Below, in pieces: positions 3,849-53,187 of a DNA stretch of 64,000 nt (positions are counted from its first letter, which is position 1; each line of letters opens with the position of its first letter). The position numbers and the translations under genes are program-made. A model generated the notes under the pieces. It was not told the DNA's origin and ran no database searches. It was given only the letters and a program-made list of their open reading frames with translations. Origin of the DNA: Nocardia sp. NBC_00565 (GTDB lineage Bacteria > Actinomycetota > Actinomycetes > Mycobacteriales > Mycobacteriaceae); contig NZ_CP107785.1 in the NCBI RefSeq assembly GCF_036345915.1, positions 7,440,001-7,504,000 on the forward strand, written 5' to 3'.

Positions 3849-5197
<1,349 letters not shown>

Positions 5198-43020: not shown

Positions 43021-43544
43021 TGGCAGTACGTCGCCTTAGCCGTGTCGATGTAGATCCTTCCGGCCTGTTCCACCGGCATCTTCGCCGGATCGAAGGACGG
43101 GTCCGACCCGGCCATCGCGGTCACGAAGGTCATCAGATCCGCATCGGAGGCATTCGCCGCGACACCCTGACAGACGTAAGTGCCGATGCTCAGCGCGATA
43201 TCCGGCGAGGACGGGGTGATGCCCGCGGCCTTCAGCGCGTCCAGGAACTTCTTGTCCTTGTCGGTGAGCTTCGAGGTGTCCTCGGGCGGCACGACATTGG
43301 TCGGGACGGGCTGCGGGCGCTCGGGCGTCGCCGTATCCGTCGATGTCTGCGCGGGCTCGGGCGCCTGCGACTGTCCGGTCGCACCGGCGCTGGTCGCGGC
43401 GGTGGTCGGCGACGTCGCCGTCGTGCTGTGGCTCAGCGTCGGTGTGCTCGACGCGGTCGAATCGTTGTCGCCACAGGCAGCGAGCAAGCCGGTAGCGGCG
43501 ATCCCCACGACTACGCCGATAACCTTTCCACGGGTCCGATGCAT
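43017..43544 (-). CDS. DUF732 lipoprotein
   Basis: 175 residues. A lipoprotein signal ends LLAAC (lipobox, Cys about residue 24), followed by a Ser/Thr/Ala/Pro-rich linker (about residues 27-90). The DUF732 domain is KKFLDALKAAGITPSSPDIALSIGTYVCQG, with a second cysteine at the end (TYCQ) that can pair with VCQG. It is cotranscribed and overlapping with the cutinase-like gene, which suggests they work together at the envelope. Function of DUF732 is unknown. Confidence 0.88.
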   Translation of the reverse strand: MHRTRGKVIGVVVGIAATGLLAACGDNDSTASSTPTLSHSTTATSPTTAATSAGATGQSQAPEPAQTSTDTATPERPQPVPTNVVPPEDTSKLTDKDKKFLDALKAAGITPSSPDIALSIGTYVCQGVAANASDADLMTFVTAMAGSDPSFDPAKMPVEQAGRIYIDTAKATYCQ

Positions 43545-43610
43545 GAATTCGTGTCCTCGATCTGTTCGCTAAGGGGTCGGGTCGCTGCCCAGGGTAGAGG
43601 AAACCCATCG

Positions 43611-43717
43611 CTAGCGACTGCTTGCAGGTCACTCGAAAGGATCAGCGGCGACTGCTTGCAGGTCGCTCGAAAGGATCAGCGGCGACTTCTCGCAGGTCCC
43701 TCGAAACGGTCAGCGGG
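43611..43717 (+). repeat. Triple hairpin repeat array, left flank of mycolyltransferase block
   Basis: Three head-to-tail units of 34 nt starting at 43616, 43650 and 43684, consensus GACTGCTTGCAGGTC then RCTCGAAAGG. The third is the most diverged. Each unit can fold with arms GYGAC/GTCRC. The same array, inverted, lies at 51085-51190. Confidence 0.85.
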
Positions 43718-43749
43718 GTGCGATCGGCCGGAAAACAGACCGGTTGGAA

Positions 43750-45627
43750 TTAGATTCCGTGAATTTCGGGTTTGCCGCCGCGCACGGTGATGAATCCGGT
43801 CTGGAAATTCTGCTGAGTGCCACCGGGAACAGCGAACTCGTCACTGGTCGGATAGCCGAGCCTGCCGTTCTCATAGCCGACCGCCGACCACATATCCATG
43901 ATCGGGCCCGAACGCACCGCCCAGGCGCCCGAGAGCGGACTCCAGTAGATATTTCCGCCCTCGAACTTGCTGTAGCGGCCGAAGTCCTTCAGCGGGGTCT
44001 CGTCGGCGACCGGGAAACCGAGCGGACTGTCCTCGTAACCCATTTGGGCGTACTTACCCAGGATCATCCCCTGTACCAGGTGCACACCGGTCTTCGCGCT
44101 GTAGTAGAACGGGCCGTTCTCGAAGGACTGCACCGCGCCGTCCCGGCTCGGGGTCTTGACCTCCGGCGCCGTGGGATAGCCGCCCGGTCCGCGCTCGAAG
44201 CCCTGCCTGCCCCATTCGTCGAGGATCGCGCCGCGCACCACCTGGGCGCCGGTCCGCGGGGTCCAATAGAGCACGCCGTCCTGGAAGGCCTGCATGCGGC
44301 CGCGGCCGTCCGGCAGCCCGAACTCGTCGTCGGTCGGCATGCCGAGCGGACCGCCCGGTCCCAGCGCCGCCTGATAGCCGCCGCCGATCATGCCGGCGAC
44401 CGCGTGCGCACCGCCCGTCGGCGCGTAGAAGACCCGACCGCCCTTGAAGTCCTGCGCGGTACCGCCGCTCACCTGGTACTCGCCGGTGAGGCAGTCACCG
44501 AGCCAGCTGGTGCCGCCGGCCAGCGCGCCGATCGCGGCGCCGGCCTGGCAGGCCGGTTTGTTCGGATCGACGCCGAGCGCGGCAGCGGCCTGCGGCCAGG
44601 ACTGACGCATTTCGAAATCCCAGTACGGCCACGAATGGGTGCCGGAGGGACGGTAATTCACCTGGGCCGGGATCGATAGCTCGGCAAGTTTGGCCACGAA
44701 ATTCTGGGAGGTCAGCCGGGACAGGACCTCCAGCCCCATGCCCGTGTAGTTCGTGCTGACCCCGGGAATTCCGCTGGCCTGGTCGAACGGCCCGGTCGAG
44801 CCGCTGCCGCTGGAGATGTAGAGGCTGATGCCCTTCAGCTTGTCCGCCAGTCCGTAGGGGTCGTGACCTTCCCATTCGGGGCCGTTCGGCGGACCCCACA
44901 TGGCGGCCGCGTCGAAGCCGCCCGCATCGCGCATGGCGAACTGGATCGCCTGCGGCATGCCGAGCGTGGTCGTGGTCAGCACACCGGAGTACGAGGCGGC
45001 GTACTTGACGAAGTTCGGGTTACGCCCGGCCAGGAACATCGCGGCCGTACCGCCCATCGAAATGCCTTCCATGCCACGGACAACCGTGGTCCGCCACTGG
45101 CTCTCCAGCAGCGGCGGCAGTTCCTTGGTCAGGAAGGTTTCCCACTTGTAGTTGTGACCGTTGTTCGGCTGCAGCCAGTCCGAATAGAAGCTGGCCTGGC
45201 CGCCGACCGGCAACACCACGGTGACGTTCTTGTCGGCGAAGAAATCCACCGCACCCGCCTGGTGGGTCCAGCCGTTCTCGTCATCGGTGGCGCGCAGACC
45301 ATCGAGCATGTACAGCGCCGGAAACTTCGCGTCGGGCCGGATATTCCAATCCCTGGCGAGCAACAGCTGCACCTGGATGGGCGCGGCCATCGAGGGCGAG
45401 TTGATCCACAGCGCAACGCGCCGATCGCCGAGCCACACCACCCGCTGCAGTGTCACCCCCGCGGCCGGTGCCGCGGCGGGCTCTGCGTTTACGGGGGCGG
45501 TAATCGGGGAAACACCGGAGGCGAGCGGAATCACGACGGCGGTAGCTAGCAGCGCCAAACGACCGCGGGCCACATATCCGTTGCGCCGCCCGCGCCTTCC
45601 CCATCTGCCGAATGCAACTCGTGCCAC
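43750..45627 (-). CDS. Mycolyltransferase with C-terminal LGFP repeats
   Basis: 625 residues from GTG 45627 (GGAAG before it). Signal peptide of about 48 residues. The Ag85-type domain has YMLDGLRATDDENGW, nucleophile GISMGG (Ser190), Glu300 in GMGLEVLS and His331 in GTHSWPYW. From about residue 370 it carries four or five LGFP repeats, marked by LGMPTDDE, GGYPTAPE, LGFPVADE and LGYPTSDE, thought to anchor to the cell wall. The layout matches corynebacterial PS1/MytA. It transfers mycolates to trehalose or arabinogalactan. The mycolyltransferase genes here all point the same way. Confidence 0.93.
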   Translation of the reverse strand: MARVAFGRWGRRGRRNGYVARGRLALLATAVVIPLASGVSPITAPVNAEPAAAPAAGVTLQRVVWLGDRRVALWINSPSMAAPIQVQLLLARDWNIRPDAKFPALYMLDGLRATDDENGWTHQAGAVDFFADKNVTVVLPVGGQASFYSDWLQPNNGHNYKWETFLTKELPPLLESQWRTTVVRGMEGISMGGTAAMFLAGRNPNFVKYAASYSGVLTTTTLGMPQAIQFAMRDAGGFDAAAMWGPPNGPEWEGHDPYGLADKLKGISLYISSGSGSTGPFDQASGIPGVSTNYTGMGLEVLSRLTSQNFVAKLAELSIPAQVNYRPSGTHSWPYWDFEMRQSWPQAAAALGVDPNKPACQAGAAIGALAGGTSWLGDCLTGEYQVSGGTAQDFKGGRVFYAPTGGAHAVAGMIGGGYQAALGPGGPLGMPTDDEFGLPDGRGRMQAFQDGVLYWTPRTGAQVVRGAILDEWGRQGFERGPGGYPTAPEVKTPSRDGAVQSFENGPFYYSAKTGVHLVQGMILGKYAQMGYEDSPLGFPVADETPLKDFGRYSKFEGGNIYWSPLSGAWAVRSGPIMDMWSAVGYENGRLGYPTSDEFAVPGGTQQNFQTGFITVRGGKPEIHGI

Positions 45628-45747
45628 AAGAGCTTCCTACCCCCGTTCACCTGTGGTTCCGGGTAGGACACGCGGGTAGCGAACCGCGCTGTCTGATTTG
45701 TCGACCTCGAAAAAGCCCAGGCAGCGTCACTTTCGGCGCGAAAAGAC

Positions 45748-45790
45748 GAACGGCGCCGCCGCTTCCCGAAGGAAACAGACGGCGCCGTTC
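45748..45790 (-). terminator. Hairpin terminator
   Basis: GAACGGCGCC (45748-45757) and GGCGCCGTTC (45781-45790); read on the minus strand it is followed by GTCTTTTCG. It lies 19 nt after the stop at 45809. Confidence 0.8.
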
Positions 45791-45808
45791 GGCGTCTGTA
45801 CCGCTAGA

Positions 45809-46846
45809 TCACCAACCGCCGGTGGCGTCGAGGATCTGGTTGCGGGAGTTGAACAGCTCGCCCTCCCAGTACTTCCAGGAGTGGGTGCCGCTGGCCGGGA
45901 AGTCGAACCGGGCCGGGATGCCGAGCGAGGCGAGGCGAGACTGGAAAGCCCGGGTGTTGACCAGCGAGAGTGCCTCGAGCGCCATCGCGGTACCGGTGTT
46001 GAAGACGCCGACCGCCGAGTTCGGCTGATCGAACTGCCCGGGCAGACCGCTGGACGCCGAGATGTACATCGGCAGACCCCGCAACTGCGGCGCGAAGACG
46101 AACGGGTCCATCCGCAGCCACTGCGAGCTCCACGGCGCGGCCATCGAGTCGACGTTATAGCGGCCCGCGTCCAGCATCGCAACGCGGATCGCCTCACGCA
46201 TACCCGGCGCGGAGATGTTCAGGTAGCCGGAGTAGGAGGCGGCGAACTTGAACTGGTCCCGGTGGTATGCCGCCATCGCCAGGGCGGCGGAGCCACCCAT
46301 CGACAGACCCACGATCGCGTTGTTGGTGCGCGATACGCCATAGCCCGCGAGGAAGTCCGGCAGCTCCTTGGACAGGAAGGTTTCCCACTTGTAGGTGGTC
46401 TTCTGGCCATTGGTGTTGCTCGGGCTGTACCAGTCTGCGTAGAAGCTCGACTGGCCGCCGACCGGCATGATCAGCGAGATGTTGTCGTTCCCGAACTGCT
46501 GGAGGGCATTCGTCTCGAACGACCACGCATTGCGGTCGTCACGCGCACGCAGGCCGTCGAGCAGGTAAAGCGCCGCGTCGCCGCCGCGCGCTGCCCACTG
46601 CACCTGGACCTTGATCGGGCCCATCACCGACGGGACCATCAGATCCTCGAAGCCGCCCGACGGCGTCCGCAATGCGGGGCCGTGCATCGGCGCGGCCATT
46701 GCGACGGTCGGGCCCGTCACACCTGCGGCAATCGGCAGCGCTAGTGCAGCGGCTCCGACACCCAGAATTCGATTACGCCAACCACGAGGAGTACCTCGCC
46801 GTCCCGACTTGGTTCTCTTCGGCGCGGCCGCCCTGCCGAAACGCAT
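45809..46846 (-). CDS. Mycolyltransferase (antigen 85 family)
   Basis: 345 residues from ATG 46846; the frame runs on to 46957. Twin-arginine-free signal peptide ending near VAMAAP. Ag85 fold: LYLLDGLRARDDRNAW, IMPVGGQSSFYADW, nucleophile GLSMGG (Ser182), Glu in AMALEALS and His in GTHSWKYW. Standard length. It moves mycolic acid between trehalose monomycolate and arabinogalactan or a second trehalose. It is the simplest and most Ag85-like member of the block, without the Ser/Gly insertion of its upstream paralogues. Confidence 0.93.
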   Translation of the reverse strand: MRFGRAAAPKRTKSGRRGTPRGWRNRILGVGAAALALPIAAGVTGPTVAMAAPMHGPALRTPSGGFEDLMVPSVMGPIKVQVQWAARGGDAALYLLDGLRARDDRNAWSFETNALQQFGNDNISLIMPVGGQSSFYADWYSPSNTNGQKTTYKWETFLSKELPDFLAGYGVSRTNNAIVGLSMGGSAALAMAAYHRDQFKFAASYSGYLNISAPGMREAIRVAMLDAGRYNVDSMAAPWSSQWLRMDPFVFAPQLRGLPMYISASSGLPGQFDQPNSAVGVFNTGTAMALEALSLVNTRAFQSRLASLGIPARFDFPASGTHSWKYWEGELFNSRNQILDATGGW

Positions 46847-47180
46847 GAATCCTGCTCTCTTTCTGCTGTTGTGGTGCCGCCCGTAGCCCTTGGAGGGCCG
46901 GGCAACACCCGTGCTGCCAACGAGACGCGCGTCGCGTGTGATCCCGGTACCCGACATTCCGGCACAAGAGACGGCGCTACAACGATCTGGTCACACTTGC
47001 GCTCGCTGGAGGTTATTCGACGTGCGAAGTCTTAGCAAGACCGGGGGTATTCGAGTGGCCGAATTCCGCCCGTTCACAAGCTGTGATCGTGCGGTGACCT
47101 TAGCGCGTTCGACCGGAGATGTCGTGCCGGAACGGGAATTTCGGACGGAATTAGGGATCCGTTAGGGAGACCGGATTCGA
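46847..47180. other. Intergenic region
   Basis: 334 bp between a functional mycolyltransferase gene and the pseudogene copy. No gene or clear terminator seen; presumably the promoter of the 45809 gene. Confidence 0.35.
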
Positions 47181-47932
47181 TCACCCTAGGTTCGCGCTCA
47201 GATCCGGCAGCATCTTGAACACTTGGTCGGTCCAGTAGGGCCAGTTGTGCGTGCCGACCGCCGGGCAGTCGAAGACCGCGTTGGTCGAGGCGAGCGAGTC
47301 CAGCAGCGCCAGTCGCAGCCCCTCGCGCATACCGGGCGCGGAGATATTCAGATAGCCCGAATACGAACCGGCATACCGGAATTGATCTGGGTGGTAGGCG
47401 GCCAGCGCCAGTGCCGCGCTGCCGCCCATGGACAGTCCGAACACACCGTTGCCGTACGGGTTGAAGCCGAGCCGGTCGCGCAGCGCCCACCGCAGGTTCT
47501 GGGTCAGGAACGTCTCCCAGGTGTAGGCGCGCTGCTGACCGTTGGTGTTGCTCGGCGCGATCCAGTCCGAATAGAAACTGGACTGACCGCCCACCGGCAT
47601 GACCACGTTGATATTCCACCGCGGCAGCACCTGGGAGATCTCGGTGTCGATCTCCCAGCCGCTGAGGTCGTTGCGGGCACGCAGGCCGTCCAGTGCGCAC
47701 ACGATGCGACGGGTGTTGCCGTCGGCGGCGCGGAAGATGCGGGTCTTGGTCGGGCCCATGCTGGAGTCGACCCAGAAGTCGGATCCGGCCGGGTTGAAGG
47801 CGGCCGCGGCGGGCGCGGTGAGACCGACGGCCGCGACGGCGTCAACGCGAGGGCCACTCCGGTCACCGACCGCCGCAACCACCCACCGCCACGCGCCTCG
47901 GCAACCATTCCGCTTACTCCATCAGATCGCAT
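47181..47932 (-). pseudogene. Degraded mycolyltransferase
   Basis: The region aligns with the 48340 and 49719 paralogues, but two lesions are seen. First, the signal-peptide start (ATG 47932; MRSDGVSG then WLRRSVTGVALALT) and the body (AVAAVGLTAPAAAAFNPAG) are in different frames, breaking at about 47840-47865. Second, about 80 residues are missing in frame after LLDSLAST, including the segment with the catalytic glutamate. The nucleophile GLSMGG and GTHNWPYW histidine remain. An alternative GTG start at 47882 would give a protein with a weak signal and no glutamate. A base-calling error could explain the frameshift but not the deletion. Confidence 0.8.
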
Positions 47933-48339
47933 CGATTCGCCCATGCGAACACCGTTGATCGCCACTGTCGCGCATGCGGCTCGACAGTCGACACCGACGC
48001 TTCCCGCGCACCGAAGTTCTCGGCGTTACCGCTCTTCTATGGGCAAATATTCAAACGACCCGAGCAAAGAGCCGCCGCGATACCGGATCGTGATGGAGTC
48101 CAGAGAATTATCGGTGCGGACTCCAACTACGGACCTCCACCAAGCAGGCCACACTGAAATTCTTTTCGTCAGCAATCATCCAGCCACAAGCGGACAAAAT
48201 ACATCAACACGGACAAAAGAAACGAAACCGCCTGGTGTGCAGACACCAGGCGGCTTGTTCACCACCTACTCGCCCACGGGGAGCGGGTCTTACGAGCGAC
48301 GTTCGCGGCACCGCAGGCGCTGCAAATTGGACACAGCAC
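47933..48339. other. Intergenic region with terminator
   Basis: 407 bp without a convincing gene. It contains the terminator of the 48340 gene (48229-48254) and an AT-richer stretch at about 48030-48210 that may have held the promoter of the now-broken copy. Confidence 0.4.
48229..48254 (-). terminator. Hairpin terminator
   Basis: CCGCCTGGTGT and ACACCAGGCGG, an 11-bp perfect stem around GCAG, followed on the minus strand by TTTCGTTTC. Confidence 0.85.
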
Positions 48340-49419
48340 TCAACCGATGTTGGCGGAGAGGTCCGGAAGCATGCGGCTGAACTCGTCCTGCCAGTTGTTC
48401 CAGGCGTGGATGCCAAAGGTCGGGAAATCGTAGACGGCATTGCCACCGCCCAGCGTCGCCATGCGCACCTGGAAGGCCCGGGTGTTGGCCAGCGCCAACG
48501 TCTCCAGGGCCATGCCGTTGAGCGTGTTGAAGCTCGGACCGTCCTGGGAGGTCGGCAATCCGCTCGCGGCGGCGATCCACAGCCTGGTGCCGTTCTGCGC
48601 CAGGTTGGGCGCGAAGACGAACGGATCCATCCGCAGCCACTGCGGGCCCCACGGCGGCGCCATCGAGTCCACGTTGTAGCCGCCCGCGTCCATCATCGCC
48701 ACCCTGATCGCCTCACGCATACCCGGCGCGGAGTTGTTCAGGAAGCCGGAGTACGAACCCGCGAATCTGAACTGGTCGGGGTGATACGCGGCCAGCGTGA
48801 GTGCGGCGCTGCCGCCCATGGACAGCCCGAAGACGCCGTTGCCGTATGGGTTGAAGCCGAGCCGGTCGCGCAGCGCCCAGCGCAGGTTCTGGGTCAGGAA
48901 CGTCTCCCACTGATACCGGTAGCTCTTACCCGGGCCGCCCGAGAGCGCGTTCATCGCGCCGGAGCCGGAATTCGAGCCGCTGCCCGCCGGGATGCCGAGA
49001 AACTCACTGGTCGCGTTCCAGTCGGCATAGAAGCTCGACATGCCACCGACCGGCATGACGACGTTGATATTCCAGCTCGCCATCTGCTCGGCGACGTTGG
49101 TCTCGATCTCCCAACCGCTCAACGTCTCCGGTGCCCGCAGGCCGTCGAGCGCGTACACGACGCGGTTGGTATTGCCGTCCGCGGCACGCAACACTCGGGT
49201 CTTGATCGGGCCCATGCCGGAATCGACCCAGAAGTCGAACATCGCGGGGTTGAAGCCCGCCGCTGCGGTCGCGCCGCTGCCCGCGATCGAGATTCCGAGC
49301 GGTAACAGCATGGCCGTCGCCACTGCGAGCACACACTTCTTCGCCCACGAACCAGAGGTTGCCCTGTTCGAAGACCTGCATGAGCTTGCGGGCCTACGTT
49401 TCCAGCGCGCACTTCGCAT
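48340..49419 (-). CDS. Mycolyltransferase with Ser/Gly-rich insertion
   Basis: 359 residues from ATG 49419; the frame continues to 49554. Signal peptide ends near ATAAAGF. Ag85 features: VVYALDGLRAPETLSGW, nucleophile GLSMGG (Ser200), Glu in GMALETLALANTRAF, His in GIHAWNNW. Between the ADW motif and WETFLT it carries an extra Ser/Gly/Ala-rich loop (about residues 139-167) that is absent from the 45809 protein and much shorter in the pseudogene. Ends DLSANIG, as in two neighbours, so these are recent duplicates. Confidence 0.92.
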   Translation of the reverse strand: MRSARWKRRPASSCRSSNRATSGSWAKKCVLAVATAMLLPLGISIAGSGATAAAGFNPAMFDFWVDSGMGPIKTRVLRAADGNTNRVVYALDGLRAPETLSGWEIETNVAEQMASWNINVVMPVGGMSSFYADWNATSEFLGIPAGSGSNSGSGAMNALSGGPGKSYRYQWETFLTQNLRWALRDRLGFNPYGNGVFGLSMGGSAALTLAAYHPDQFRFAGSYSGFLNNSAPGMREAIRVAMMDAGGYNVDSMAPPWGPQWLRMDPFVFAPNLAQNGTRLWIAAASGLPTSQDGPSFNTLNGMALETLALANTRAFQVRMATLGGGNAVYDFPTFGIHAWNNWQDEFSRMLPDLSANIG

Positions 49420-49670
49420 TCGACTCGACCTTTCATCCAGGCGGCCAGCCAGCGAATATACGGCAACTTCAACTGACCCCTCATCGGGCATAAACGCGGA
49501 CCGACCTACGCAAAACGGACGTTTCCACCTGTATGCATGCTGTCCGTACATCAATCGCTAACGAACGCTTCCATGTTGCTGGAAAGCGATCCACCCCACA
49601 ACTATCGAAGGCATCCCGCAGCTGATTCGTTGTCAACCAGGGTTGCGGACTTGAAGTCGGCAAACGAAAA

Positions 49671-49702
49671 ACCGCCCGATGTGCGAACACACCGGGCGGT
49701 TT
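49671..49702 (-). terminator. Hairpin terminator
   Basis: AAACCGCCCGATGTG and CACACCGGGCGGTTTT pair around CGAA; read on the minus strand the stem ends in TTTTTCG. It lies 17 nt after the stop at 49719. Confidence 0.85.
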
Positions 49703-49718
49703 TCGGAGGCTGGCTATA

Positions 49719-50804
49719 TCAACCGATATTGGCGGAGAGGTCGGGGATCATCCGGTAGACCTCGGACTCCCAGTTGTGCCAGTTGTGGATGCCGACCGAC
49801 GGGAAGCTGTAGGTGACATTCTGGGCACCCAGCGTCGCCATCCGGACCTGGAAGGCACGGGTGTTGACCAATGCGAGCGCCTCGAGCGGTGTGCCCTGGA
49901 TGATGTCCAGCGGCGCGGAGGCGTCGGCCGGGCCGGGCAGCGCGCTACCGGCGGCGACCCAGAGCCTGGTGTTGTTCTGGATCAGTCGCGGCGCGAAGAC
50001 GAACGGATCCATCCGCAGCCACTGTGGGCCCCACGGCGGCGCCATCGCGTCGATGTTGTAGCCGCCGGCGCTGATCATGGCCACGCGCAGCGCCTCGCGC
50101 ATGCCCGGCGCGGAGACGTTCAGGTAGCCGGAGTACGAACCGGCATAGACGAACTGGTCCGGGTGGTAGGCCGACAGCGTCAGCGCGGCGCTGCCGCCCA
50201 TGGACAGGCCGAAGACGCCGTTGCGGGTCGGGCTGAAGCCCAGGCGGTCACGCAGTGCGTTGCGCAGGTCGCTGGTGAGGAAGGTCTCCCACTTGTAGGT
50301 GTTCGACTTGCCGAGCGTTTCGTTCCAGCCGGAGGAGCCCGTCATCGCGGAACCGGAGGAGGAACCGTTGGCCGAACCCGAGGATCCGGTGCTCATGCCG
50401 AGGAAGTTGCCCGGCGCGTTCCAGTCCGCGTAGAAGCTGGACGGGCCGCCGACCGGCATGACGACGTTGATGTTCCACTTGGTGAGCTCACGGGCGACCT
50501 CGGTCTCGGCCTCCCAGCCGTTGAGGTCACCGCGGGCCCGCATGCCGTCCAGCGCGTACACCACGCGCCCGGTATTGCCGTCCGCGGCGCGGAAGATCCG
50601 CGACTTGATCGGCCCCATGCTGGAGTCCACCCAGAAATCGAAGGCGTCCGGATTGAACGCCGCCGACGCGGAACCCGCCGGACCTGCTACTGACACCCCG
50701 AGCGGCAGCAAGATAGCCAGGGACATCAGCACCGACCGCTTGAACCACGAACCGGCTCTTTGGGTTCTCAAACGTCCAACCTGCGTCCCGATCACGCCTC
50801 GCAT
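49719..50804 (-). CDS. Mycolyltransferase with longer Ser/Gly-rich insertion
   Basis: 361 residues from ATG 50804 (AAAGG before it). Signal peptide ends near GSASAAF. Ag85 features: VVYALDGMRARGDLNGW, nucleophile GLSMGG (Ser201), Glu in GTPLEALALVNTRAF, His in GIHNWHNW. A low-complexity loop of about 37 residues (131-167), mostly Ser and Gly, sits at the same place as in the 48340 paralogue. It is the first gene of the block after aftB and the usual position of fbpA. No fbpA/B/C name can be assigned because the paralogues duplicated within this lineage. Confidence 0.92.
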   Translation of the reverse strand: MRGVIGTQVGRLRTQRAGSWFKRSVLMSLAILLPLGVSVAGPAGSASAAFNPDAFDFWVDSSMGPIKSRIFRAADGNTGRVVYALDGMRARGDLNGWEAETEVARELTKWNINVVMPVGGPSSFYADWNAPGNFLGMSTGSSGSANGSSSGSAMTGSSGWNETLGKSNTYKWETFLTSDLRNALRDRLGFSPTRNGVFGLSMGGSAALTLSAYHPDQFVYAGSYSGYLNVSAPGMREALRVAMISAGGYNIDAMAPPWGPQWLRMDPFVFAPRLIQNNTRLWVAAGSALPGPADASAPLDIIQGTPLEALALVNTRAFQVRMATLGAQNVTYSFPSVGIHNWHNWESEVYRMIPDLSANIG

Positions 50805-51189
50805 CTAGTTTTCGGCCTTTCGTTAAGCGGTGCGTTACTCGACCGCGTCTCTACGTTGACCACTGGGGCTCGCCCATGTCGAATCGGACACCCCAACGGG
50901 CGTACTCACGTACCCTATCGCGTCATCGATGCGCTGGCGTTATCAAAAAGAGATAAAGCGATCTGCGACACGTTTAACGCTGCAGGTCAATGAAACAACT
51001 GGGCCCATGGAGGTCCATGGGCCCAGTGTGACTGGAGATGCCGTTTCAAGCGAATCGAGATAGTCGCTGAACGACAATTTCTCCCTAGCTGACCCTTTCG
51101 AGCGACCTGCAAGCAGTCGCTAGCTGACCCTTTCGAGCGACCTGCAAGCAGTCACTAGCCGACCCTTTCGAGCGACCTGCAAGCAGTCA
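50805..51189. other. Intergenic region: terminator plus repeat array
   Basis: 385 bp between the mycolyltransferase start and the aftB stop. It holds a probable promoter for the 49719 gene (about 50810-50990), the aftB terminator (50998-51027) and the triple hairpin repeat. Confidence 0.5.
50998..51027 (-). terminator. Hairpin terminator of the glf-aftB operon
   Basis: ACTGGGCCCATGG (50998-51010) and CCATGGGCCCAGT (51015-51027), a perfect 13-bp stem with a 4-nt loop, followed on the minus strand by TGTTTC. Confidence 0.85.
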
Positions 51190-51190
51190 C
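51085..51190 (-). repeat. Triple hairpin repeat array, right flank of mycolyltransferase block
   Basis: Three units of 35 nt (cores at 51093-51118, 51128-51153, 51163-51188), identical in their 25-nt core to each other apart from single changes. They match the array at 43611-43717 in opposite orientation. The arms AGCGAC/GTCGCT form a stem. The last unit abuts the aftB stop codon. Confidence 0.88.
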
Positions 51191-53187
51191 TAGCGTTGCG
51201 GCTGCGGATACGGATCCACGAGCCCGCACCGCTCGATCTCGTACCGCGGCACCCGATCGATCCGGTACTTCGCGAACCGCAGCGCATTGCGCAGGTTGTG
51301 TTCGAAGCGGTCCCAGGTTAGCGGGTCCCGGTAGGAGATCATCAGTGCCTCGGTATCCGGGCATTTCGTGGCGGCGCGGGCCTGGGTTACCCACTTCTCG
51401 TCCATGTACCAGGGCATCCACGGATGCTGGTCGACCATGCCGGTATCCACCACGACCCAGTCCGGATACAGGCTCTTGTCGTGCCCGATCCGGCCGTCGG
51501 TGAGCCGGTCGGTGTGCGCGGCCAGCGGATAGGCCAGGCCCATCTGGTCGATGACGCGCACGTCCAGCGGAACGTTCATGCTGGTCATGCCGAGGTTCAG
51601 GAAGTAGACGGTATGTCCGGCGCCACCGTCGGGAATCGGCTGCGGCGGGGGCGCGATGTACCAGAACATGAACGACGGCGCGTTCAGCAGCAGCCCGCCA
51701 TTGGGGGTCTCGGCGATGTTGTTCACCATGGCCCGGATGCGCGGGTAGTCCAGGTAGTCCTCGGCCAGGATCGGGTGGTCGTGGCCGGTGTTGAGGACGT
51801 AGTAGACGCGCTCGTCGACGATGCCGGACGAGCTGATCTTGGTGCCGGTCTTGATGGCCGTCGTATTGGCGGCGAACAGCGCCCAGCCCGCGGTGCCGAC
51901 CAATGCGAGCAGGAGTACCGCGAAGGACCAATCCCGCGCCGTCACCGCGCGCAGGCCGCCTTGGCGGTTGACAGCGGCAAGCGGCAGCCGGATCGGCACC
52001 ACGGCGACCGGCAGCAGCAGGCAGAACAGCTGCGGCAGCAGCATCCGGCCGTGCATGAAGTCGCCGCCGACGCGCAGCGCATAGACCGTGAGGACGACTC
52101 CGCTGCCGAGCATGAGCGCGACCACCGCACTCGGCGAACGCAGCCATTCGCGCCCCCGGCGCACCGTCCAGCGCGACTGTCCGTCGGTGGCGGTGTGCGC
52201 ACCGGCGGTGGCCTTCGCGGCCCGCGACGAGCGAGCCGCGATGACACCGGCGACCAGCAGCACCAGCAGCGGCACCCAGAGGTAGTACGGACCGACCAGG
52301 TCCCAGAGGTATTTGAAGCCCTGCCCCCACTTGGCCCCGCCCGCGTCCTTGGCGACCGCGGTATTCGGGTAGGGCAGGCCGTAGTAGCCCATCCGCCAGA
52401 CCTGGTAGCACATCGGCACCAGCCCGGCGACGGCAACGATCAAGCCGCGCAACACGATCGGGCGCAGCCGGGACTCCGGCAGCGGAGCCAGGAAGATCAT
52501 CATCAGCGCCAGCGCGCCGACCAGGGTCATCTCCGGGCGGATCAGCGGTGCGAGGCCGGCGAGGAATACCAGACCGAACAGCGCGGGCAGCTTCACCCGC
52601 TCGGCCTGACTCCAGCGGATCAGCTGCCACCACAGCAGGCCGAGCCAGCAGATGACCAGACCGCTCTCCAGACCGGAGGTGGCGTAGTCGCGGGCGGGCG
52701 GCAGCGCGATGTAGACGAACACACCCGCGGGCAGCAGCAGCGATGACCTGGTCCCGCCCCACAGGCGCGCCGTGCCGATCATGGCGAAGACGATCGCCAG
52801 CATCGAGACGGTCAGCGCGACACCGAGTACGACGTACTCGAGCCGGGCCTGGGTGAGCCAGCTGAAGAACCACACCAGGTAGGTCCAGGCCGTACTGGTG
52901 TTGGTCTCGACGCGCTCACCCTCGTTGAAGACCGGCCCGTTGCCCGCCAGCAGGTTCCGCACCGTGCGCAGCACGATGAGGCCGTCGTCGGCGATCCAGC
53001 GTCGCTGCCAGGCGCCGACCGTGAAGAGCACCACCGTGAGCGCGATCCCACCGACGAAGGTGGCTCGGGATAGCCTCGCGAACCGCGAGAGCGAGCCGGC
53101 CCGCGCATCGGCGGGCCGCTCGTTCTCGTCTTCTGTTCGCTCCAATCCCGCTACCAACATCTCGTCAGGTGAGATAGACAGCGACAC
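51190..53187 (-). CDS. aftB: Terminal beta-1,2-arabinofuranosyltransferase AftB
   Basis: 665 residues from GTG 53187 (GGAGCGGTAG before it); ATG 53160 is an alternative that avoids the 23-nt overlap with ubiA. GT-C protein: after the first helix comes RRWIADDGLIVLRTVRNLLAG, with the catalytic Asp67-Asp68, then NTSTAWTYL, about nine helices and a C-terminal periplasmic domain. It adds the terminal beta-1,2-arabinose to which mycolates are attached, so its position beside the mycolyltransferase block is logical. Last gene of the coupled operon. Confidence 0.93.
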   Translation of the reverse strand: MSLSISPDEMLVAGLERTEDENERPADARAGSLSRFARLSRATFVGGIALTVVLFTVGAWQRRWIADDGLIVLRTVRNLLAGNGPVFNEGERVETNTSTAWTYLVWFFSWLTQARLEYVVLGVALTVSMLAIVFAMIGTARLWGGTRSSLLLPAGVFVYIALPPARDYATSGLESGLVICWLGLLWWQLIRWSQAERVKLPALFGLVFLAGLAPLIRPEMTLVGALALMMIFLAPLPESRLRPIVLRGLIVAVAGLVPMCYQVWRMGYYGLPYPNTAVAKDAGGAKWGQGFKYLWDLVGPYYLWVPLLVLLVAGVIAARSSRAAKATAGAHTATDGQSRWTVRRGREWLRSPSAVVALMLGSGVVLTVYALRVGGDFMHGRMLLPQLFCLLLPVAVVPIRLPLAAVNRQGGLRAVTARDWSFAVLLLALVGTAGWALFAANTTAIKTGTKISSSGIVDERVYYVLNTGHDHPILAEDYLDYPRIRAMVNNIAETPNGGLLLNAPSFMFWYIAPPPQPIPDGGAGHTVYFLNLGMTSMNVPLDVRVIDQMGLAYPLAAHTDRLTDGRIGHDKSLYPDWVVVDTGMVDQHPWMPWYMDEKWVTQARAATKCPDTEALMISYRDPLTWDRFEHNLRNALRFAKYRIDRVPRYEIERCGLVDPYPQPQR

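Follow-up and report, generated by a model that had tools for sequence, protein, structure and literature searches.

A 64-kb stretch of a 9.71-Mb Nocardia chromosome (the window) carries a short palindromic repeat, arranged as two inverted arrays of three units on either side of a block of mycolyltransferase-like genes and as one isolated copy, and our analysis indicates that this repeat is probably a non-coding micro-element, some 33-38 nt long, that is mobile and whose insertions are independent of the mycolyltransferase block. The original prediction, made from the letters of the window, described triple arrays with periods of 34 and 35 nt on opposite strands bracketing five mycolyltransferase loci, together with a single copy before rmlB, and in these respects it was accurate. 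A search with the 21-nt core of the repeat, allowing up to three mismatches, found every one of these copies (seven in the window) and none in 100 dinucleotide shuffles. Five open reading frames (ORFs) between the arrays match PF00756 Esterase, which we take to be the domain of mycolyltransferases, and the gene beside the single copy (3849-4856) is an NAD-dependent epimerase/dehydratase by domain match, consistent with rmlB.

The same search of the whole 9.7-Mb genome returned 234 copies (106 forward, 128 reverse), with none for a reversed-pattern control. Copies are scattered in their hundreds, though their spread is uneven; hundreds of evenly scattered copies were what the original prediction had named as making the flanking of the block a coincidence. 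In 77 arrays taken from loci around listed places (roughly the first 100 of the 234, with place 151363 excluded), we saw no bias towards either replication strand by genome halves (27 versus 26 and 11 versus 13, taking the start of the record as the origin). The second half of the chromosome record (4.9-9.7 Mb) holds 53 of these arrays and the first half 24, the sampling having followed the listed places. At up to two mismatches the core matches in 45 of 150 genomes of the genus and in none of the other 105; the present genome has 196 copies, the next two relatives have 142 and 136, a further two have 43 and 22, and the rest have 1-17. A sample of 301 genomes from the family gave nine with a match, three of them outside the genus, namely two genomes of genus g22 with 12 and 15 copies and one further genome with a single weak match. 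The exact core occurs in 116 stretches of an 84,980-species collection (from which the window's own genome is possibly excluded), and by record title 103 of these are Nocardia, 12 are Rhodococcus (R. maanshanensis and R. oryzae) and one is Saccharothrix. The two carriers in genus g22 are taken to be R. oryzae and R. maanshanensis, and the Saccharothrix deserti match (L168) may be due to chance, as we estimate that about 0.2 matches would be expected for a 21-mer in 257 Gb. A 106-nt array had no match at blastn sensitivity in plasmid and phage collections.

Evidence for mobility comes from orthologous sites that are filled in one genome and empty in another. An all-against-all comparison of the fetched loci, in which copies beyond three mismatches did not count as element and from which overlapping own loci, arrays less than 300 or 400 nt from a locus end and identical contexts were left out, yielded 24 filled/empty pairs. 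For 19 of these, at 14 sites, the net insert was at least 29 nt; for the other five it was between -4 and 5 nt, and these nominally empty sites perhaps hold degenerate copies beyond three mismatches. Single inserts mostly measure 33-39 nt, with one of 29 and one of 42 nt, and larger inserts approach whole numbers of units: three copies occupy 108 nt (3 x 36) at two loci, three occupy 103 nt (about 3 x 34) and four occupy 145 nt (about 4 x 36). The number of units also differs between species at ten orthologous loci, for example four versus one, three versus one, and three versus two versus one. Read by eye, the junctions show no consistent target duplication, and a few target bases have been replaced at some sites; there is no duplication at L106/L107, the clearest junction, a possible GC at L191/L074, and ambiguity elsewhere. 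In two Nocardia genomes the element lies just 3' of an identical sequence that by eye resembles the 3' end of a tRNA (L192 and L183, compared with L054).

All three sites in the window behave in this way. G013, G031, G092, G141 and G142 denote genomes of relatives. In G013, G092, G141 and G142 the array 2 site measures about 9 nt, compared with 154 nt in the window, and the array is absent. The array 1 site measures 6 nt in G013 and 109 nt in the window; this array is also missing from G142, G092, G141 and G031, and comparison with loci L227, L232 and L233 gives a net insert of 103 nt. The single copy at 4.9 kb is common to the window genome and G142 and is absent from G013, G092 and G141. Array 2 lies directly 3' of gene 51190-53187 (minus strand), which precedes the mycolyltransferase block in the direction of transcription and which ends CAA CGC TAG in the window, with the TAG supplied by the element. 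The orthologous ends are CAA AGG TGA in G142 and G013, CAA AGG TAA in G092 and CAA AGA TAA in G141. Use of the element in this manner is not confined to the window, as its TAG serves as the stop codon at six of 23 flanks with an upstream stop.

Copies are also found in frame within proteins. When a margin of 45 nt was applied to all loci, 19 of 188 arrays lay inside called genes, ten of them in the present genome. Variants of the peptide VVSSDLQAVASG are encoded by ten of the 19, the Saccharothrix copy included, with the rest read in other frames. The net lengths at the six in-gene loci that could be compared (36, 108, 39, 63, 72 and 36 nt) are all multiples of three. In P0001, a dehydratase-like protein with two domains, a FAS1-like dehydratase region and a ChsH2-type OB fold, the insert lies in the linker, and the peptide is absent from 11 of 11 orthologues, eight of which are shorter at this place by 12 residues and three by 10-11. 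Copies occur too in open frames of 5333 and 3631 residues, whose length suggests peptide or polyketide synthetases. Without a margin, 62 of the 77 own-genome arrays are intergenic and 15 lie inside ORFs, far fewer than random placement would put there. Among 60 array-carrying spacers, 38 are unidirectional, 21 divergent and only one convergent, compared with 9.0 convergent spacers expected by length (p 0.0015). Within unidirectional spacers the orientation of the element is even (22 versus 18, p 0.64).

The unit itself is an imperfect palindrome of 33-38 nt with the consensus CCGCTAGCGACTGCTTGCAGGTCGCTCGAAANRRYCNGC, which was derived from 325 distinct copies, themselves picked for their resemblance to the core, and in which about 26 positions are conserved; a conserved CTCGAAA lies mostly outside the palindrome. 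Arrays hold 1-11 head-to-tail units. A single period, between 33 and 38 nt, is kept throughout 53 of 57 multi-copy arrays, and all 119 distinct pairs of neighbours within 150 nt have the same orientation, with no opposed pair. Within an array the joints between units mostly agree, but they vary from one array to the next, a pattern suggesting that a founding dimer of variable form was then expanded unit by unit. The tetranucleotide GTAG is present in 101 of the 325 copies (31%) and CTAG in 120, with the AG of the tag lying within the stem; CGTC is absent from the consensus, although no separate search was made for it. Across the 325 copies, the 5-bp stem is entirely Watson-Crick in 261 and intact in 292 if a T-G pair is allowed.

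The evidence that this palindrome acts as a folded structure is weak. The original prediction held that the stem bases change in pairs, and three of the seven window copies do have an all-Watson-Crick stem (GTGAC/GTCAC at 4883, and GCGAC/GTCGC at 43650 and 51096). A T-G pair occurs in two others (GTGAC/GTCGC), and the stems of the remaining two, at 43616 (GCGAC/GTCAC) and 43684 (GCGAC/GTCCC), are broken; the prediction had passed over these breaks. Counted by array (n = 210), the C2-G18 pair appears as T-A in seven cases, as T-G in ten and broken in nine, so that covariation amounts to a small signal at a single stem pair. Four single-unit DNA folds were no better than shuffles (z = 0.77, 0.80, -0.51 and 0.48), nor was the RNA fold of one array (z = -0.54). 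A structured RNA family was considered and set aside: at gathering cut-offs Rfam gave no match in the window, and in six loci it gave three matches, all to other families. Of the transposing hairpin that had been proposed, the movement is supported by the dispersed copies, the empty orthologous sites and the in-frame genic copies; the compensatory pattern in the stem is weak.

These observations can be accommodated in a scheme of four steps. First, as the filled and empty sites show, the element is inserted singly or in whole multiples of roughly its unit length into intergenic spaces, at gene ends or in frame within genes, with no obvious long target duplication. Second, as the copy-number differences between orthologous sites show, it is present as 1-11 head-to-tail units, nearly always with one period per array. 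Third, because joints differ between arrays, a dimer would arise by insertion of a second copy next to an existing one; the array would then grow and shrink by slippage or unequal recombination, as the likeness of its units and joints suggests. Fourth, insertions would persist where they do little harm, and this would explain the excess outside genes, the stops supplied by the TAG and the genic unit lengths divisible by three.

Several points weigh against the mobility of the element. We found neither a mobilising enzyme nor an autonomous parent, and movement was not directly observed. A profile search of the own loci (0.78 Mb) for such a parent yielded 23 additional hits, most of them short or degenerate, and nowhere in these loci was a transposase seen between split ends. 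The direction of change, gain rather than loss, rests on several relatives sharing a short empty site and not on a rooted tree. The boundaries are not clean, given the 43 extra nucleotides at array 2, the small target replacements and the net inserts of 29 and 42 nt. Gene placements come from our own simple gene caller rather than from an annotation (84% of the window was called coding). The avoidance of convergent spacers is not explained by the survival of harmless insertions alone, and the strong conservation of the core across two genera could also reflect selection for the site of a host protein.

A more specific form of the mobile element can be offered tentatively. The repeat might belong to a separate class of mobile palindromes, one that inserts singly, about 36 nt at a time, whose unpaired side is constant (TTTCGAG when read on the opposite strand) in place of GTAG/CGTC, that multiplies only head to tail and is moved by an enzyme other than a Y1 transposase. 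Its unit, which can measure exactly 12 codons, would repeatedly seed one 12-residue peptide in unrelated actinobacterial proteins, giant synthetase-like genes among them.

Repetitive extragenic palindromes (REPs) are thought to be moved by Y1 transposases, and the repeat could itself be a REP recognised, as a hairpin with a GTAG-like tag, by a transposase of the REP-associated (RAYT) or IS200 type. We regard this as unlikely. The size, the palindrome, the TAG at the 5' edge that acts as a stop and the intragenic copies are all REP-like, and tandem REP clusters have been described as well (PMC3733652). Y1 transposase matches are present in 28 of 148 genomes of the genus, including all three with more than 100 copies, and they are commoner among genomes with at least ten copies (8 of 11, versus 20 of 137 others; p = 7e-5), a comparison that involves a post hoc threshold, related genomes and several hits that are fragments. 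However, there is no association when genomes with any copy are considered (10 of 45 versus 18 of 103, p = 0.50), and no Y1 match was found in the copy-bearing Nocardia G013 (22 copies), G109 (15) and G060 (11), nor in genomes G170 and G211. None of eight fetched Y1 loci of 3.2-3.4 kb carries the element within five mismatches, the best matches at these loci covering 20-22 positions compared with 19-24 in 20 shuffles of one locus. The low frequency of GTAG and the lack of inverted neighbours also count against a REP of this kind. IS110 was considered as another mobiliser, matching 11 of 11 high-copy genomes and 99 of 137 others (p = 0.066), and is so ubiquitous as to be uninformative.

Less probable again is a functional role for the repeat as a regulatory site or RNA element, such as an operator or an mRNA hairpin, kept by selection near promoters. 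Such a role would fit the scarcity of convergent spacers, the near-invariant positions of the consensus (subject to the selection of copies noted above) and the covariation at one stem pair. Against this, many sites are lineage-specific, the element shows no orientation bias within unidirectional spacers, 15 of the 77 arrays lie inside predicted genes, the folds do not exceed shuffles, and Rfam gave no match to the element in the window or in six loci at gathering cut-offs. Still more doubtful is the view that these are old repeats, lost independently in the relatives and altered by tandem-repeat slippage without recent mobility. Copy number does vary at shared sites, but several relatives share an identical short empty site, the P0001 insert is missing from all 11 orthologues, and 105 of the 150 genomes of the genus have no copy within two mismatches.

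We return, with the mobile element as the preferred reading, to the arrangement in the window, the features of which are listed in Table 1. Array 1 occupies the spacer between an LGFP-type esterase/mycolyltransferase gene (stop at 43750, minus strand) and a DUF732 gene (start at 43544, minus strand), and its orientation opposes transcription. The region was fetched from 12 relatives, and in all of them genes one, two, four and five of the block keep their order and their single strand between the same two outer genes. No element (up to three mismatches) was found in the block or at its edges in these 12 genomes, whose copies sit kilobases outside. The suggestion that the block might be inverted, amplified or transferred by way of its inverted flanks finds no support in these genomes, and for transfer it is contradicted. 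A mobile or invertible unit that carries the block and has the arrays as its ends, as their opposite orientation and separation of 7.4 kb might imply, is scarcely credible given these relatives, the separate empty site of each array and the 234 copies in the genome. On the preferred reading the two arrays are two independent insertions, unrelated to the block. Since relatives keep the block without arrays and the empty sites of the two arrays are separate, coincidence is the best reading of the inverted bracketing. Of the five ORFs, the third is partial (233 aa, covering Esterase model positions 24-154 of 251) and lies among overlapping short frames (47074-47965, minus strand); it looks like a degraded copy. 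A gene or piece of a gene is present at this third position in six of the 12 relatives, with none there in the other six.

Table 1. Positions in the window of the repeat, its arrays and the associated features.
Feature	Position	Strand	Remarks
Core copy, single	4883-4905	+	
Core copies, array 1	43616, 43650, 43684	+	period 34
Core copies, array 2	51096, 51131, 51166	-	period 35
Single unit	4876..4915	+	divergent spacer; upstream of the rmlB-like gene, ~20-24 nt from its start (4856, -)
Array 1	43608..43716	+	three head-to-tail units, period 34
Array 2	51085..51195	-	three head-to-tail units, period 35
TAG stop of gene 51190-53187	51190..51192	-	element-derived; frames read by eye
~43 nt adjoining array 2	51042..51084	-	missing in four relatives; not recognisable as element sequence
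PF00756 ORFs, whole block	43750..50804	-	
PF00756 ORF, first	43750-45573	-	with LGFP repeats
PF00756 ORF, second	45809-46957	-	
PF00756 ORF, third	47181-47882	-	partial
PF00756 ORF, fourth	48340-49554	-	
PF00756 ORF, fifth	49719-50804	-	

A second dispersed palindromic repeat, with the 35-nt core GYCGAAGCGCATGCGNCGNAGNCGCGAGTCTCGRC, was also present. It gave 5-57 matches per genome in 10 of 10 Nocardia genomes searched, with none for the control (for example at 737273-737307 and 7126635-7126669 in G000, among others, and at loci L058, L066, L069 and L106). Paired changes are seen in its stems (GCGAC-GAA-GTCGC and GCGCC-GCA-GGCGC; GTCGA/TCGAC, GCCGA/TCGGC, GGCGA/TCGCC and ATCGA/TCGAT), and the ~36-nt element adjoins several of its copies. 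This repeat had no Rfam match in six loci and none in the window.

Among mobile palindromes of 20-40 nt, those of Proteobacteria are the best described. No published description of the present repeat was recognised in literature searches at the level of titles and abstract openings, and searches with its letters or peptides matched other subjects only. An actinobacterial case with many filled/empty pairs makes the length, the target and the mobiliser of such an element testable, its in-frame copies illustrate how so small a sequence can give unrelated proteins a peptide in common, and the differences in arrays between species may serve as typing markers. In forming intergenic head-to-tail arrays of variable copy number, the repeat resembles the mycobacterial interspersed repetitive units (MIRUs) and other variable number tandem repeats familiar from mycobacteria, although MIRU units are longer than ~36 nt. 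Like miniature inverted-repeat transposable elements, it is short and non-coding with filled and empty sites; the 0.78 Mb of own loci revealed no parent insertion sequence sharing its ends, and no target duplication was seen at the clearest junction.

The closest parallels are with two other kinds of palindrome. REPs, as described in PMC3733652, have TAG ends used as stops, are sometimes intragenic, include many families with opposed units and some tandem clusters, and in the genomes shown there favour unidirectional and convergent spacers; the main text of that paper, by a term search that excluded the supplements, makes no mention of Nocardia, Rhodococcus, Actinobact or Mycobacter. The repeat shares with REPs a palindrome of 20-40 nt, a high and dispersed copy number, a TAG end that serves as a stop and some copies within ORFs. 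It differs in lacking a consistent unpaired GTAG/CGTC end tag of the kind typical of most REPs, in having only head-to-tail neighbours and in avoiding convergent spacers; a Y1 transposase is present in some of the copy-bearing genomes and absent from others. The Rickettsia palindromic elements (RPEs) are, according to PMC10969869, dispersed palindromes of ~150 nt that lie in frame in unrelated proteins, although PMC3733652 includes RPE-4 and RPE-6 of R. conorii with the intragenic CGTC/GTAG REPs. With RPEs the repeat has in common its dispersed palindromes, its in-frame insertion into unrelated proteins and a conserved peptide, and it is set apart by a unit of only ~36 nt (periods 33-38), by its actinobacterial hosts and by its tandem arrays. 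The element works like a REP or a Rickettsia palindromic element, while departing from several of the features usual in either.

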